Positions 3,068 through 34,918 of a stretch of DNA of 36,453 bases are shown here, piece by piece. A program made the position numbers and the translations under genes. This DNA comes from Nitrospira sp. (lineage in GTDB: Bacteria > Nitrospirota > Nitrospiria > Nitrospirales > Nitrospiraceae): the NCBI GenBank assembly GCA_005116835.1, contig SWDM01000012.1:1-36453 (forward strand). Reading direction: 5' to 3'. Each line of letters opens with the position of its first letter. The first letter of the stretch is position 1. Under the pieces are notes generated by a model, which saw only the letters and a list, made by a program, of their open reading frames with translations, had not been told where the DNA came from and made no database searches.

Positions 3068-3850
3068 TCAGGCCGCTGGAAGAGGCTCGGCTGGTCGTGT
3101 GGCGTTCTTCAGGTGGGACTTCTTGTTCTTCATGAGACTGATCTGTTTCTCCGTGGGTGCATAGGGGCGCGGCGTTCTGTCCCTGTAACGTTTCTCAAAC
3201 TGCTCGATGAGCTGAAGCGCTTCCACCGTGCGCTCCTGCCCGATCATGAGATCTACGAGGCGTAAATACGTCGGCACGAGGAGCGGCATATGCCGAACCT
3301 CCTTGGCATGTTCAAGTGTATGGAGATACTTGTCCATAGCAATGGTTGGGTTTGAGCAATCTCCCAACACCGCTTCCAATATATAGATGCCCAACCGATC
3401 TGTGTTGGCGCTGATGCTCCGTTCCCAGGGACCAAGGACCATCTCCCCTAATTCATCCTGGCTCAACTGTATCGGTTCACGCTTGCGGGATGATTGTAAT
3501 CGTGTGACGATCCGTTCCGCTTCTGGCCACGCGCCGTACAAGCCGACGAGAAAGCCGATGCAGCGCGCAGGCGTGTTACACGTTCCCTTGATCGGTGAGA
3601 ACTGACGCGTCATCACCTCGCTCGGAGGGAATACTGTTGCGTGAGCTGTGCGGCACACCTCGCAGGCCTGTCGATCGTCAGCTACGACATAGACATACAT
3701 ACGGATGCCCGATCGGTCGAAAATATCGATCGCGAGAATTCGTCCCTTCATCGTTTGGATTTGATAGTACTGCCAAAGGACAAGTAGCCCGAAAATTCCC
3801 AGCAAGTAGGGAAGGAAGTCAGGCAGAAGGATGCTGCTTGAGATTTCCAT
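3068..3850 (-). CDS. Membrane-anchored hypothetical protein with CxxC and paired cysteines
   Basis: About 260 aa. One N-terminal membrane helix (LLPDFLPYLLGIFGLLVLWQYY) is followed by a soluble part. The soluble part has a cysteine cluster (CEVCRTAH, then TCNTPARC about 25 residues later) that could bind zinc or form disulfides, then an alpha-helical C-terminal half that looks TPR-like (YLHTLEHAKEV, YLRLVDLMIGQERTVEALQLIEQF). The C-cluster layout (CxxC, a proline-rich loop, then C...C) recalls the small zinc site of Mu F-type domains, but the match is weak. The start is uncertain: an in-frame GTG at 3877 adds nine residues, and neither start has a strong ribosome site. Single gene, no operon partner. 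Confidence 0.7.
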   Translation of the reverse strand: MEISSSILLPDFLPYLLGIFGLLVLWQYYQIQTMKGRILAIDIFDRSGIRMYVYVVADDRQACEVCRTAHATVFPPSEVMTRQFSPIKGTCNTPARCIGFLVGLYGAWPEAERIVTRLQSSRKREPIQLSQDELGEMVLGPWERSISANTDRLGIYILEAVLGDCSNPTIAMDKYLHTLEHAKEVRHMPLLVPTYLRLVDLMIGQERTVEALQLIEQFEKRYRDRTPRPYAPTEKQISLMKNKKSHLKNATRPAEPLPAA

Positions 3851-4028
3851 AGACCTGGCGCGATAAAAAGTCAGCACACTGCGGTTAATTAGGAAAATTA
3901 TAACGAAGAAATCTCAACCAATCTATGAATAGATGGGTTTCTATATCAAAGAGCGATGGCCTGGGCCATGGTTGAGTCGTGTAGAAAGCGAGGTGAGTTG
4001 TATGGCGTGATCATTCTCGCACGGAGAG

Positions 4029-19052: not shown

Positions 19053-19835
19053 ATGCGTCAGACAGTTATTCTTTTGCTGGGTGGATGCGTTCTCTCAGTG
19101 CTTCTTCTGTCTGTCCCTTCTCACAAGGCTTTGGCCGTAGACGAATGCTGCGCGACGGAGGTGACAGCCAAGATCGCTGCCAAGCCCGCTGCGGCGCTCG
19201 TTGACCGTCCTGAATATCTGGGCTGGAAGAACTTCAGACCTGGTGCGAAGGTTGTGTACGCCGCTCGGTACTGGAATCTGACCGTCTCGAACAAATTCGT
19301 GGCCGGTCCGACCACTTCTCTCTATGCCTATCAGTTGCGGGTCATCAACGCTGAGGGCGTCAGGCTGTGGTTCAGCCAAGCTCCCACTGATCGGTATGGG
19401 AGGCCCATGCCTCCGAATGAATGGGAAGAGACCTTCGCCGCTCAGTATGATCCCACTATCGACCCGTCGGCGAATCAATCCCGTTATGTCCAACTGCTGA
19501 CGGTCTTCCGGCAAGCCGGCAATCTTGCGATGGGTGTTCAACTAAAGCCCCGACCAATTGAAACCGGTGAAGAGACGATCGAGCTCAACGGCGCGCGGAT
19601 TGCGACGCAGTGGGAGTCTGCGACGTATGAGTATGACATGTCGGTGTGGCCGACCTTCAAAAATTGTCGCCTGGTCATCAAGCTCTGGACCAGCGCCGCC
19701 GTTCCGACGGGGTTGGTTCGCAAGACCGAAGATAGAACCTGCCCGCTGGGCGGAGATCAGTTGGCGCGAGTCATGGTTGAAACGTATCTCCAGTCATTCG
19801 AGGGGTTTACGCTGACGGCGAGCACGTTGCGCTGA
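19053..19835 (+). CDS. Exported hypothetical protein (260 aa)
   Basis: Not recognised. Signal peptide (TVILLLGGCVLSVLLLSVPSHKALA, cleavage ALA-VDE), then a mature part with a CC pair near its start (DECCATEV). Mostly beta: KVVYAARYWNLTVSNKF, SLYAYQLRVINAEGVRLWF, QSRYVQLLTVFRQAGNLAMGVQL, ATQWESATYEYDMSVW. One more Cys pair (KNCRLVI; EDRTCPL) may form disulfides. The start ATG at 19053 follows GGGAG. It stands alone between two repeat-rich spacers. The periplasm is the likely site. Confidence 0.68.
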   Translation: MRQTVILLLGGCVLSVLLLSVPSHKALAVDECCATEVTAKIAAKPAAALVDRPEYLGWKNFRPGAKVVYAARYWNLTVSNKFVAGPTTSLYAYQLRVINAEGVRLWFSQAPTDRYGRPMPPNEWEETFAAQYDPTIDPSANQSRYVQLLTVFRQAGNLAMGVQLKPRPIETGEETIELNGARIATQWESATYEYDMSVWPTFKNCRLVIKLWTSAAVPTGLVRKTEDRTCPLGGDQLARVMVETYLQSFEGFTLTASTLR

Positions 19836-19986
19836 TGCTTTGCCTGCGACGAGCTAAGGGGTAGGCATCAGTATTGACTTATCGTCAAACAGATCGCCAC
19901 ACACCAACAGACGCCTGACAGTGTGAAGCATGTTGCCGCATTCGTCCGCTCCATAGTGTCAAAAAAGTATCGGAGTGAAGAAAGGA

Positions 19987-28380: not shown

Positions 28381-29089
28381 TCTGTCGGTCTCTCCGCGTT
28401 GGAGGAATCAGCAGGCACGATTGCGGATTGTGCCCAGCCCTGTCAATAAGAAACTTCCGTCGCGTCTGTTCGCGATAATCTCATCGGATGGCTACCTGTC
28501 CTTCTCCATCTATTCCTTTTCCCCAGTATTGAAGGGGGGTGCCAAGGTTGCCCTCGACTGCGTACTCCACCTCCCGCTCAGTATTTGGAGGGAGGGCACC
28601 CATGTTGTTCCAACTGCGCGCGTCCAACGAGGCCCTTCTCAGGGCGCACGTTCCACGAGCAATGAGGGCACCTGGCCTCTCCTTTTCTTCTTTCTCTCCC
28701 CCTCCACATTGTAGGGGGACAGCCTGGCTGCTTGAGCGGGCATCAGGGACTTGTTGAGTCCGCCGTTGCCGAACGGTAGCGGCCTGCCATCGGCAGGTGG
28801 TGGCGCTGTTCGCCGTTCCATTCAAGCGTCGCTTGGAATGGAACAAGTTGCGCTGCCAAGCGGCAGTGAGGCTTACGGCGGCCAACAAGGCCCTGGCTTT
28901 AAGCGAAAGTAGCCAGGCTGTCCCTTGCCTCACACTCTTGCTTCTGCTTCTCCCTGCCTCGTACAATGCCCCCGTAACCCCTTGGCTTTCTGACTGTTTC
29001 GGGTCACTTTCGCGTTCGAGCGATAGAAGGAACAGATCTACATGCGGATCGAGTATTCCAAGGGCGAACGGGCTTCAAAGGAGCTGATT
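28381..29089. repeat. Repeat-rich spacer before the radical SAM genes
   Basis: About 700 bp. 28381-28478 is the shared promoter side of the DUF5674 module (also at 13541-13640). 28500-28740 and 28940-29077 repeat the 26430-26820 block. It contains hairpins CCTGCC-ATC-GGCAGG (about 28784-28799) and GTTCCATTCAAGCG...CGCTTGGAATGGAAC (about 28814-28842, one bulge). 29042-29077 keeps the first 12 codons of the KGERAS small gene, here fused by chance in frame to the radical SAM gene. Confidence 0.55.
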
Positions 29090-30940
29090 ATGCTCCAACG
29101 TGAAGCCTCCGAAGCCACCAGTGGCCGGAAGATGAAGGTGCTGCTCATCTACCCGCCTGACTGGTTCCCCTCCGAACCCTATTTGAGCCTTCCCTCCCTC
29201 ACCGCCGTCCTCCGCCAGGCCGGCCATACCGTCATCCAAAAAGACATCAACCTTGAGATGTGGGACTGGTACTTCAGCGAGGACTTTTTGAAGAAAGTCC
29301 TGCGCCGTGTACCGCCGCAACTCGACCGGCTCAGGAAGCTGTCGAAGAAGCGTGATTTGAGCGCTGAGGAGATGGATTTGCAACTGTCCCTCTGCGACCT
29401 GACCAGGCAGCGGATCGACGAGTTGATTAAGAAAGCGGAGATGGCAAAGGCGATCATCCGTGGAGAAACATTCTACGATATCGACAGGTTAGAGTGGGCG
29501 ATTCAAGTCTTCCGCGAAGTTACTTCGGTGATCTCGATGGTCTATGCCCCGGCCAGGATCTGTATGCCGCCGATGGAGACGGATCTATCCTATAAAGTCT
29601 TCGTGTCGTCCGAAGTCATGGAGGCGGTGAACGATACCCAGGTGAATGTCTACCGAGACGTGTTCGAGCATCTGGTGAAGCCGGTGATTGAGCAGGAACA
29701 ACCAGATGTGGTTGGCATCTCCATAGTCTTGCAGCAGCAGATGTTTTCCTCCATGACCTTCTGTGCTCTCATCAAGCAACACTTCCCCCACATTCACGTC
29801 ACGATCGGTGGGAACACGGTGACACGCCTGCGCGATGTGCTGCCTCAGTCGCCCCTGTTCCAATATTTCGACAGCGCCGTGGTTTATGAAGGGGAGACGG
29901 CCTTTGTACAGCTGGTCTCTGCGGTGGGGGCGAAGCGGAGTCTCTCGGACGTGCCCAACACCATCTATAAAGACGCCACCGGCGTCCATACCTCGGCAAC
30001 CAGCTATGCAGAAGATCTGGCGACGCTGCCGCCGCCGGATTTCGACGGCTTGCCGCTCGATAAATATTTCGTGCCGACGAAAATTCTTCCCTATTTGGCG
30101 ACCCGAGGGTGCTACTGGGGCCGCTGCGAGTTCTGCGACCATGGCGAGGGCTATACGGCAGGCTACCGGTCGAAGAAGATCCAGGACATTCTGGCCGACA
30201 TCACCTATCTCCGTGACAAATACGGGGCGAAGCAATTCCACTTCACGGATGAGTCTTACCCGCCGGCACTCTTCCGCAAGTTGGCGCGCGGTTTAATTGA
30301 GAGCCAGATGGGCATCGTCTGGACGACGCATATGCGGTTCGAGAAGAGCCTACTGGACGATCAAGTCTGGCAGGATGCGAAGGAGTCCGGCTGCAAGTAT
30401 CTCCACTTTGGCTATGAGTCGGGGAACGAGCGCGTCTTGAAGCTGATGGACAAGGCGACGACGACAGAGATCATGACGAAACATTTGCAGCTGACGGCTG
30501 ACGCGGGCATTTGGAACCACTGCATGGGCTTCTTCGGTTTCCCTGGCGAGACGAAGGAGGAGGCCTGGCAGTCGGTGCAATTCCTGGAGCAGAACAAGGA
30601 CTATGTGCATTCGCTGGGCTTCGGCACGTTCGACCTGGGCCGGCATAACCCCGTGGCGAAGCATCCGGACAAGTGGGGCGTGACCGCCTACAAGAACCCC
30701 GAGTGGGATTTGGCGCTCGACTACTACTATACGGTGAAGGATGGGATGAGCATCGAAGAGGCGGAGCGGGTGTTCCAGGAATTCGAACGGAAGCACAACC
30801 CTGGCTGGGACCTGCGCCTGTTCATCCGTGAATACATTTTTCTCTACATCGCACGGTTCGGGCTGCAGAAGTTGCCGGACCTACAATATCAGGCGGCGAA
30901 GATTGTGGGCGCGGCGCCGTCGCTGGCAGGGAAGATGTAA
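29090..30940 (+). CDS. B12-binding-type radical SAM protein A
   Basis: 616 aa from the ATG at 29090. AAAGGAG at 29078-29084 fixes this start, although the frame is open from an ATG at 29042. The N-terminus MKVLLIYPPDWFPSEPYLSL then PSLTAVLRQAGHTV is the opening of a cobalamin-binding Rossmann domain. It resumes after a helical insert at DVVGISIVLQQQMF...HVTIGGNTVTRL; the DxHxxG cobalamin ligand is not seen. The radical SAM site is RGCYWGRCEFC (C341, C346, C349; C-x4-C-x2-C spacing), with DESYP, HFGYESGNERVL and FFGFPGETKEEA following. The substrate is unknown. Paralogue of the next gene, with 93 bp between. Confidence 0.85.
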   Translation: MLQREASEATSGRKMKVLLIYPPDWFPSEPYLSLPSLTAVLRQAGHTVIQKDINLEMWDWYFSEDFLKKVLRRVPPQLDRLRKLSKKRDLSAEEMDLQLSLCDLTRQRIDELIKKAEMAKAIIRGETFYDIDRLEWAIQVFREVTSVISMVYAPARICMPPMETDLSYKVFVSSEVMEAVNDTQVNVYRDVFEHLVKPVIEQEQPDVVGISIVLQQQMFSSMTFCALIKQHFPHIHVTIGGNTVTRLRDVLPQSPLFQYFDSAVVYEGETAFVQLVSAVGAKRSLSDVPNTIYKDATGVHTSATSYAEDLATLPPPDFDGLPLDKYFVPTKILPYLATRGCYWGRCEFCDHGEGYTAGYRSKKIQDILADITYLRDKYGAKQFHFTDESYPPALFRKLARGLIESQMGIVWTTHMRFEKSLLDDQVWQDAKESGCKYLHFGYESGNERVLKLMDKATTTEIMTKHLQLTADAGIWNHCMGFFGFPGETKEEAWQSVQFLEQNKDYVHSLGFGTFDLGRHNPVAKHPDKWGVTAYKNPEWDLALDYYYTVKDGMSIEEAERVFQEFERKHNPGWDLRLFIREYIFLYIARFGLQKLPDLQYQAAKIVGAAPSLAGKM

Positions 30941-31033: not shown

Positions 31034-32770
31034 ATGACTGAACTAGTTCAAATAGGCGGTCTGGCCCCATTGGCCAAGGGGGAACGGAAGACCAGCAAGG
31101 TCATGCTGCTCTTTCCGCCTGAATGGGTGCCAACCGCGCCCTATCTCGCCTTGCCCTCGTTGACTGCCGTGCTGCGAGAGGCAGGCCATACAGTCATCCA
31201 GCGCGACATCAATATCGGGATGTGGGATCACTTCTTCAGCATGGAGTTCCTGATCTGGGTGAAGGCCCGGTTGGGGATGCAGCTGAAGCCACTCCAAGAT
31301 AAGGAGAAGGTGGGAACGCTGACGGAACAGGAAGCGGATCATAAGGCGGTAGTAGAGAAGGCCTATGTCGTCGATGTATTCGATCTGGCGGATCGGGCCG
31401 AGGATGCCAAGCTGATCGTGCGTGGCGAGCGTTTTTACCAGGCCGAGATACTGGAAGGCGCGTTGAACTGCTTCCGTGAAGCGATGGCCTACATTTCCGC
31501 AGCCTATTATCCCGCGTCGCTTGTCTTCTATCCGATGGAAAGCAATCTGGGCTATCGGCCCGGCGTATCCAAAGAAGTGCTGGCCTGTTTAGACGATGAG
31601 CAGGTGAACGTCTATCGGGACCTCTGCAATCAGCTGGTCATGCCGGCGGTGGCGAAAGAAATGCCGGACGTCGTCGGGGTCTCCATCGGCACGCAGATGC
31701 AGCTGCTTGCAGGCCTGACCTTTTGCAAGATGATCAAAGAGACCTTCCCGCATATTCATGTGGTGGTGGGAGGGAACGTCATCACGCGCCTTCAAGAAGA
31801 TCTCGCCAAGCAGGAGCAGTTCTTCACGGACGTGTTCGACTCGGCGATCCTCTACGAGGGCGAGCATGCGCTGCTCTGGCTCATCGAATCATTGAATGGC
31901 GAGCGGCCCATCGCATCCGTGCCCAACTTGATCTATCGCGATGCCTCAGGCATTCACCGGAACTCCGAAGTTTACACCGAAAAGACGACTGCGCTGCCTT
32001 TGCCGGATTTCGACGGGCTGCCGCTAGACCGCTACTTTGTACCGGAGCTGATCATTCCCTACCTGGCAACGCGCGGCTGCTATTGGGGCCGCTGCACGTT
32101 CTGCGACCATGGCCAGGGTTACTTCGATCAATATCGAGGCGTGCCGGTGCAACAGGTCGTCGAACAGATTAAGGCGCTGCGGGACAAGTATCAGTGCCGC
32201 CATTTTCTCTTCTCCGACGAATCCTATCCGCCGGCGCTGTTTAAGAAGGTGTCGCAGATGCTGGTCGATCAAAATGTCGGGATCAAGTGGACGACGTTGA
32301 TCCGGTTTGAAGAAACGCTCCAAGACCAGGAGACCTGGGATCTCGCGGCGAAGGCCGGCTGTTGCACCCTCTATTATGGGATGGAGTCGGCGAGCGAGCG
32401 GGTGCTGACTCTCATGGACAAGCATGCCAAGAAGAGCGTGATCCAACGCAACCTCCAGATGGCGGCGAAGTCGGGGATATGGAACCATGTGATGGCGTTC
32501 TATGGATTCCCCGGCGAAACGCTCGATGAAGCGTTGGAAACTCGCCAGTTCGTCCTTGAGAACCAGCCGGTGATTCACTCGATGGAGCTGTTCTACTTTG
32601 TGGCCTATCGCCATACGCCGATGGTGCGCAACCCGGAGAAGTTCGGGATTACGATCCACAAGCAAGAGGAGTACGATCTACCCCTGGACTATTACTACAC
32701 GTTGAACCTGGGATCTCGCGGCGAAGGCCGGCTGTTGCACCCTCTATTATGGAATGGAGTCGGCGAATGA
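31034..32770 (+). pseudogene. B12-binding-type radical SAM protein B, ended by a frameshifting repeat
   Basis: 578 codons. Same layout as protein A: KVMLLFPPEWVPTAPYLALP then SLTAVLREAGHTVIQRDINI, DVVGVSIGTQMQLL...HVVVGGNVITRL, and the cluster RGCYWGRCTFC (C349, C354, C357), DESYPPALF, YYGMESASERVL and FYGFPGETLDEA. It is intact to YYYTLN (32706). Then it jumps back to a second copy of the WDLAAKAGC segment in the wrong frame and ends with NLGSRGEGRLLHPLLWNGVG at 32770. The usual C-terminal helices are therefore missing here and lie in the next frame. Start ATG at 31034 has no clear ribosome site; an ATG at 31103 (MLLFPP) is possible. It may still make a truncated protein with a whole radical SAM core. 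Confidence 0.75.
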
Positions 32771-33080
32771 GCGGGTGCTGAGCCTCATGGACAAGCATGC
32801 CAAGAAGAGCGTGATCCAACGCAATCTCCAGATGGCGGCGAAGTCGGGGATTTGGAACCATGTGATGGCCTTCTATGGGTTCCCCGGTGAAACACTTGAT
32901 GAAGCGTTGGAAACCCGCCAGTTTGTCCTCGAGAACCAACCGGTGATTCACTCGATGGAGCTGTTCTACTTCGTGGCCTATCGCCATACGCCGATGGTGC
33001 GCAACCCGGAGAAGTTTGGGATTACGATCCACAAGCAAGAGGAGTACGATCTCCCCCTGGACTATTACTACACGTTGAAC
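32341..33080 (+). repeat. 373-bp imperfect tandem repeat inside the radical SAM genes
   Basis: The segment from CCTGGGATCTCGCGG (32334) recurs 373 bp later (32707). Over about 367 bp the two copies differ at 19 places without gaps (about 95% identity). Fifteen changes are silent third-position changes; only two residues differ (Ser/Asn and Thr/Ser). 373 is not a multiple of three, hence the frameshift. Confidence 0.9.
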
Positions 33081-33362
33081 GATCCCAGCACCCTCTCCTG
33101 CCTGGACGCGATGCAGATGTGCGAAGAGTTCTACAAGAACGATTTTCACCCCTGGGCCGTGCGCGTGAACTCGCGGGAACATGTCTTCCTCTATATCTCG
33201 AAGTTCGGGACGAATCAGTTGCCGCAGATCTATGCGCAGCAGACGCAGGCTATCGGATCGCCGGCTGGAGTCTCGGGATTGATCACCTGGCCGGTCGCGA
33301 AGAACGGGAGCGAAGATGGAGCGGAGGGGATGAGTCGGGTGGTGAGCCACGGGGTTTCGTAA
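32754..33362 (+). pseudogene. C-terminal part of a third radical SAM paralogue (C)
   Basis: A 202-codon frame from an internal ATG (MESANERVLSLMDKHAKKS). It holds the second half of a radical SAM domain (NLQMAAKSGIWNHVMAFYGF, PGETLDEALETRQF), then YYYTLNDPSTLSCLDAMQMC and the C-terminal SREHVFLYISKFGTNQLPQI found also at the end of protein A (REYIFLYIARFGLQKLPDL). It lacks the B12 domain and the iron-sulfur cysteines, so it cannot act alone. It belongs either to the broken gene before it or to a neighbour paralogue joined by deletion. Confidence 0.75.
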
Positions 33363-33363
33363 A

Positions 33364-33483
33364 ACGTGAAAGGTGAAACGTTAAACGTGGGGTCGTGTGA
33401 GGAGTAAGACGTGAAAAGCGAGCGGGCCTAGTTCAGTCTTGGCATCGAATTTACCTTTCACCTTTTACGTCTCACGTTTCACG
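33364..33483. repeat. Degenerate GTGAAACG inverted repeat
   Basis: ACGTGAAAGGTGAAACG (33364-33380) faces CCTTTCACCTTTTACGT and CTCACGTTTCACG (33454-33483), both made of the same 6-7-base words. The right arm runs into the last codons of the J-like gene. Shared with the 31.0 kb spacer (CTCACGTTTCACGCC). Confidence 0.6.
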
Positions 33484-33736
33484 CTTCGGACTCATCCGGA
33501 ACGAGGACGGCGGAGAGTAGGGCATAGGCGGCTTCGACAAGCTTGGTCATCTCTTCTGCCTTTTTATAGGCCTCCATGTACTTCTTGGGGTTGTTCGTGA
33601 GATTTGAGTAACGGGCAGGGTCCCAGGTATAGAGCAGTACTCGCCTGGTCCTGTCGAGGGTTTCGGGGGTGACGGGAAGGGTGAGTCCCAGTACCTCCAG
33701 TGCATGGATGACGTCTTCTTGGTTTACATCGGTCAT
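33479..33736 (-). CDS. J-domain-like protein without the HPD motif
   Basis: 85 aa. HALEVLGLTLPVTPETLDRT then RRVLLYTWDPARYSNLTNNP, KKYMEAYKKAEEMTKLVEAA and YALLS follow the DnaJ J-domain helix pattern (LGL, helix II with RR, a loop, long helix III, then AY-x-LLS). The HPD tripeptide needed to stimulate Hsp70 ATPase is replaced by WDP. It probably uses the fold for binding only. Weak ribosome site. Lies between the radical SAM region and the PhzF gene, divergent from the latter. Confidence 0.65.
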   Translation of the reverse strand: MTDVNQEDVIHALEVLGLTLPVTPETLDRTRRVLLYTWDPARYSNLTNNPKKYMEAYKKAEEMTKLVEAAYALLSAVLVPDESEA

Positions 33737-33848: not shown

Positions 33849-34778
33849 ATGCCTGATCCGCGTTCGCTGAAGTTCTATCAAGCCGACGTTTTTACGGGGC
33901 AGCCGTTCGGTGGGAACCCGGTTGCGGTGTTTCCCGAAGCGCTCGGGCTCACCGACGATCAATTGCAACGGATCGCCCGGGAGATGAACCTCTCCGAGAC
34001 CGTGTTTGTGCTGCCTCCGACCGATGGGGCAGCAGTCGTTCGCCTTAGGATTTTTACCCCAACGCAGGAGCTTCCATTTGCCGGGCATCCGGTGCTGGGA
34101 ACGTTTTATGTGTTGGCTGAGATCGGTATGATTGCCGCTACCGATGGCATTACCCGGGTGATGCAGGAGTGCAACATCGGCCTCTTCCCGGTCGAACTCC
34201 ATGCGCAAGATGGCCAGGTGACGCAGGTGGTGATGACACAGCCGAAACCTGAGTTTCTCGGTCCGGTGGACAAGGTTGAAAATCTGTATGCGATCGCCAA
34301 TGCGTTGGGGGTGCCAAAGTATGTCATCTCGGATATGAAGTGGCCGATCGAAGTGGTTTCCACCGGGTTTCCAGTGTTGATCGTGCCCGTTCGGACTCTG
34401 ACAGCTGTGCGCTCGATCAGACCCGACGCATCTGCCATCATGGAGCTCTGCGATCGGTTCGGGGCGAATGGCATCATGACATTCACGACTGTGACCGTAG
34501 AACCCTCTGCGACGGTTCATGCCCGCATGTTCGCCCCCTCGGTCGGGATTCTTGAAGATCCTGCAACCGGCAGCGCGAGTGGGGCGTTGGGCGCCTACCT
34601 GGTGCAAAACGGAGTGGTCGCGGTCGCTCCCACGACAGACATCGTCGTTGAGCAGGGCTATGAGATCGAGCGTCCATCACAAATTCTCGTGCGGATCGAG
34701 TCGGATGACGATATGATCCAATCGGTCAAGGTGGGAGGCCAGTGCGTCATGGTGGTCGAAGGAACGTTAACCTTCTAG
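33849..34778 (+). CDS. PhzF-family isomerase/epimerase-like protein
   Basis: 309 aa. The family shows [20 protein letters not shown] then [20 protein letters not shown] and NLSETVFVL, with the catalytic glutamate in [25 protein letters not shown] marks the repeat-domain joint, and [20 protein letters not shown] is the second-domain signature. PhzF proteins are two-domain folds like diaminopimelate epimerase. The phenazine enzyme isomerises trans-2,3-dihydro-3-hydroxyanthranilate, but most members act on unknown small molecules, and there is no phenazine cluster here. ATAGGGAGAG gives the ribosome site. A palindromic repeat follows the stop directly. Confidence 0.88.
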
Positions 34779-34779
34779 C

Positions 34780-34903
34780 AGGATGTTGAAAACGGCTTCC
34801 AGCTTCGTTCTCAGTCGCATGTCTCCCTGCGACGTACCCCAGAGGGTACGCCTCAGTCGCCATGCTCCCTGCGGCCTTGCTGGAAATCCGTTTTGAACAT
34901 CCT
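34780..34903. mobile_element. Palindromic dispersed element, copy 1
   Basis: AGGATGTTGAAAACGG (34780-34795) and CCGTTTTGAACATCCT (34888-34903) form 16-bp ends, with one mismatch, of a 124-bp element that starts one base after the PhzF stop. The interior has its own hairpin (GCGTACC...GGTACGC type, GTACCCCAGAGGGTAC, about 34833-34848). It folds as one long stem, so it may also stop transcription. Seen again at 36030. Confidence 0.75.
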
Positions 34904-34918
34904 GTGAAGATTAGGAAG

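Follow-up and report, generated by a model that had tools for sequence, protein, structure and literature searches.

Divergent tandem copies within a radical SAM gene of a draft Nitrospira genome are probably an assembly chimera of two orthologues

A cobalamin-binding radical SAM gene (gene B) in a draft Nitrospira genome is broken by an out-of-frame tandem repeat of 373 bp, and this structure is likely to be an assembly chimera of two B orthologues from co-occurring Nitrospira lineages. We favor this interpretation because the two repeat copies show between-species divergence with strong constraint on the protein, because B is single and intact wherever it is uninterrupted in relatives, because the genome's own assembly carries a de Bruijn signature, because the assemblies of two congeners (G017 and G002) hold non-identical, overlapping pieces of B, and because B breaks in most of the nearest species' assemblies. 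We infer that this particular join is artificial; the structure as a whole probably does not reflect the true genome. In this report, we use the term window for the whole stretch of DNA that was analysed (36,453 nt, contig SWDM01000012.1), and coordinates refer to it unless another contig is named.

The repeat consists of two direct copies (Table 1) with 375 matched bases (94.9% identity) and a start-to-start distance of 373 in the given sequence. Of the 19 differences between the copies, 15 are silent third-position changes, while the remaining four fall within two codons, which differ as serine/asparagine (AGC/AAT) and threonine/serine (ACT/AGC); the repeat as remeasured here is accurately described by the sequence-only reading (373 bp, 19 differences, 15 silent). 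If 19 changes are placed at random, approximately five are expected to be silent (mean 4.9), and at least 15 silent changes occurred in 0 of 20,000 draws. Values of dS and dN between copies are 0.257 and 0.007, respectively (dN/dS ~0.03). Differences that are so strongly silent indicate that divergence took place while both copies still belonged to intact, working genes, before the frame was broken, which bears out the earlier claim that both had been under selection; most simply, they would have diverged under purifying selection in separate lineages. Since 373 equals 3 × 124 + 1, the repeat breaks the frame of B.

The two copies meet at 32707/32708, where they share 2 bp (AC). A pattern search for the junction across 175 genomes of the family gave only the own genome, apart from one chance-like match with three mismatches. 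The first eight bases after the join (CTGGGATC), which are also the start of the unit, have their exact reverse complement (GATCCCAG) directly after the unit. This 8-bp inverted match abuts both unit breakpoints exactly, an arrangement seen for 12 of 400,000 random pairs.

Table 1. Positions of the genes, repeat copies and junction within the window.
Feature	Position	Strand	Basis or remark
Gene A, B12-binding radical SAM protein, 632 aa, intact	29042-30940	+	Pfam PF02310 and PF04055
Gene B as present, 578 aa (~558 native residues followed by a brief out-of-frame end)	31034-32770	+	ORF, domains, relatives
Repeat copy 1 (373-bp unit plus 2-bp overlap)	32333-32707	+	in frame with 5' part of B
CTGGGATC at unit start, with reverse complement GATCCCAG at 33081-33088	32335-32342	+	sequence match
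Repeat copy 2	32706-33080	+	in frame with 3' part of B
Junction TTGAAC/CTGGGATC, AC overlap	32706-32708	.	absent from the other 174 family genomes apart from the chance-like match
3' part of a B gene, read from an internal ATG (202 aa; radical SAM domain end and C-terminal tail)	32754-33362	+	ORF, domains, relatives

Gene A is a tandem paralogue of B (~49% amino acid identity). The ORF for the first part of B includes the B12-binding and radical SAM domains, traverses copy 1 and stops shortly past the junction, and the remainder of B is read in a different frame. Judged by its domains, B is a member of the broad cobalamin-binding radical SAM class, and it falls below every curated NCBIfam cut-off. 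Among NCBIfam models, A and B score highest against those for PhpK-family (TIGR04479) and RiPP-maturation (TIGR03975) enzymes, which have B12-binding and radical SAM domains, as do A and B. However, TIGR04479 gives 149 bits for B and 131 bits for A versus a curated cut-off of 600, and TIGR03975 gives 109 bits for B versus 282; with B so far under the cut-offs, assignment of A and B to either family was rejected. Both genes have the cysteine motif CYWGRC-x-F-C (C-x4-C-x2-C; 30109-30135 in A and 32077-32103 in B) in place of the C-x3-C-x2-C that is usual in radical SAM proteins. Programmed frameshifting was also rejected, because it would insert a second 124-residue copy into a radical SAM protein, an architecture seen in no relative.

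The repeat unit was compared with its counterpart in each of five near relatives within Nitrospira (G031, G017, G004, G009 and G015). Against these, dS is 0.155-0.394 for copy 1 and 0.206-0.334 for copy 2, and the numbers of base differences for copy 1 and copy 2, respectively, are 16 and 15 with G031, 16 and 21 with G017, and 20 and 19 with G004, compared to 19 between the copies themselves. These distances place the divergence of the repeat copies at the level seen between orthologues in different species. In a tree of the 373-bp unit the copies are not paired, although pairing is not rejected (AU p 0.20), and neither the tree nor the AU tests assign the copies to particular lineages. Segment identities place the left and right flanks in the same nearest species group, a comparison in which sister species are indistinguishable. 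Relatives of B are present in all 32 of the genus genomes searched, with several having distant ones only, and we added 80 B loci taken from public genomes together with flanks of as much as 6 kb per side. In relatives, uninterrupted B is a single frame of ~650 aa beside its partner A, and the flanks of the loci examined (genus genomes and the 80 public loci) contain no second B-like gene at 60% identity or more. The sequence-only reading had proposed a comparison with relatives having two or three tandem copies; among the loci examined none such was found, with B being single where uninterrupted.

The genome itself is a bin of 24 contigs (99.3% complete, 0.69% contamination). On either side of a 100-N gap (L133), it has the same 126 bp without a mismatch, an overlap of the kind that a k=127 de Bruijn assembly leaves, which marks it as a scaffolded draft. 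Similar trouble at B is found in congeners. In G017, two contig ends overlap inside B by 135 bp at 94% identity, and in G002 (RSF10) pieces of B at contig ends overlap by 163 bp at 94.5% identity, while in G031 B is divided between pieces that share an exact overlap of 149 bp. RSF10 also has a 5-kb contig (L042, G002:C4) with a blunt join at position 2400 that leads from the interior of B to the middle of ADH with a 2-bp overlap; a second ADH, 90% identical, is on the larger RSF10 contig G002:C20. Breaks inside B occur in four of the assemblies of the six genome-wide nearest species, where 0.68 would be expected (P 0.005), a count that is supportive only, being post hoc (the pattern had already been noticed) and based on rounded contig numbers. 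Among 18 other assemblies there is one such break (expected 2.3). The caveat of the sequence-only reading, that an assembly error would give the same picture, still stands.

Several other features were observed in these genomes. An intergenic repeat of ~125 bp at 34777-34905 has approximately 40 copies across the genome, and shorter repeats at 33360-33490 also recur. A 316-bp piece at 3559-3874 of another locus (L031, G003:C2), beside N runs in a scaffold, is 97% identical to positions 19640-19954 of the window, which is far above the usual level between these genomes. The genome also encodes a member of the ammonia monooxygenase subunit A family (G000:C16:398023-398727; PF02461, 307 bits), and on the basis of this match it may be a comammox Nitrospira.

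The central part of B differs from its surroundings in how it compares between species. Over this core (~31.37-33.07 kb), dS among near species is 0.26-0.34, versus ~0.55-1.1 around it, both in A, PhzF and ADH and in B itself at its 5' end and tail, and identity between species is ~91-96%, versus mostly 79-82% for the same species over an unrelated 8-kb region (genome ~80%). Toward outsiders, dS of the core is not reduced, save for a mild dip at 32.37-33.03 kb. This pattern suggests exchange of the B core between species, or its lateral homogenisation, and since G015, one of the species compared, was picked by its similarity in B, such exchange is to be taken as a lead. The right edge of the core (33069-33128) is close to the right end of the repeat unit (33080).

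As an assembly chimera, the structure would have arisen as follows. Two Nitrospira lineages in one sample would each have contributed an allele of B, the first supplying the left part (31034-32707) and the second the right part (beginning at 32708). The assembler, or a later scaffolding or gap-closing step, would have put the two end to end at 32707/32708 and left the 373 bp by which they overlap uncollapsed. Because the B core is so unusually alike between species of ~80% identity, short-read graphs of mixed samples would fork and contigs would end there. In the cell, B would presumably be an ordinary intact gene of ~650 aa. This resembles chimeric metagenome contigs of related, co-occurring lineages, in which one bin holds overlapping, non-identical orthologous pieces of one gene, and here, too, there is a draft assembly with a k-mer overlap at a gap and a gene that is intact in relatives. 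It differs in that the join has neither an N run nor a long exact overlap; with 2 bp of overlap only, it is not an obvious product of de Bruijn joining. Also counting against a chimera are the cleanness of the bin, the shared nearest species group of the two flanks, the inverted match at the breakpoints, for which a chimera does not account, and the finding that no other divergent, out-of-frame tandem repeat stood out in the ~0.83 Mb scanned (the window and stretches of the own genome).

A real join is the main, though clearly less probable, alternative: DNA of another Nitrospira species would have recombined into B by homology on one side and by an illegitimate, microhomology-sized join on the other, the outcome being two alleles partly duplicated in tandem and a gene disrupted not long ago. 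Homology-facilitated illegitimate recombination and merodiploids are known from transformable bacteria (De Vries and Wackernagel 2002, as cited in PMC3784515), and the former would yield one homologous and one microhomology junction together with two divergent tandem alleles. A single event of this kind covers the between-species divergence, the 2-bp overlap and the absence of further decay, and the apparently homogenised core, with its edge near the unit end, fits as well. Partial duplications via transformation have been described in other bacteria (PMC3784515), but the merodiploids there are large duplications between repeats, and for Nitrospira the process is a candidate. The intactness of B in relatives wherever it is uninterrupted and the assembly trouble at B in congeners argue against a real join, as does the report of low homologous recombination in the coexisting Nitrospira species of waterworks filters (PMC8751384). 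The fuller claim, that the junction is a genuine and very recent product of illegitimate recombination between species, in a Nitrospira carrying an AMO-family gene and at a radical SAM gene with a repeatedly exchanged core, is a shade more doubtful still.

The explanation preferred by the sequence-only reading, in which a deletion starting at the end of B and reaching into a full neighbouring paralogue C left B frameshifted and C headless, accommodates the silent divergence between copies, and the A/B pair does attest to a tandem duplication in the distant past. We nevertheless consider it very improbable: a tandem pair of B-like genes is found in no relative among the loci examined, the copies diverge at the between-species level, and they are not clearly sisters. 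The proposed C is best read, from its distance to B, as the B of another lineage. Fresh in-place tandem duplication of 373 bp has in its favor the form of the unit and junction, including the 2-bp microhomology, and yet is scarcely credible. Differences arising after the break should be ~26% silent, which is incompatible with 15 of 19, and a foreign allele would have to have replaced one copy afterward. In its simple form this duplication is refuted by the silent excess, just as the sequence-only reading had argued.

If the structure is an assembly chimera, a broken and seemingly duplicated enzyme in a high-quality bin would be mis-scored as gene loss or gene birth, and silent divergence of between-species size within a tandem repeat provides a sign by which such cases can be recognized in other metagenome-assembled genomes. 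If instead the junction is genuine, it would be a lateral replacement of a gene core caught in the act, breaking the gene. The core of B, whose similarity between species far exceeds that of the remaining genome, is also relevant to the reports of little recombination in these Nitrospira.
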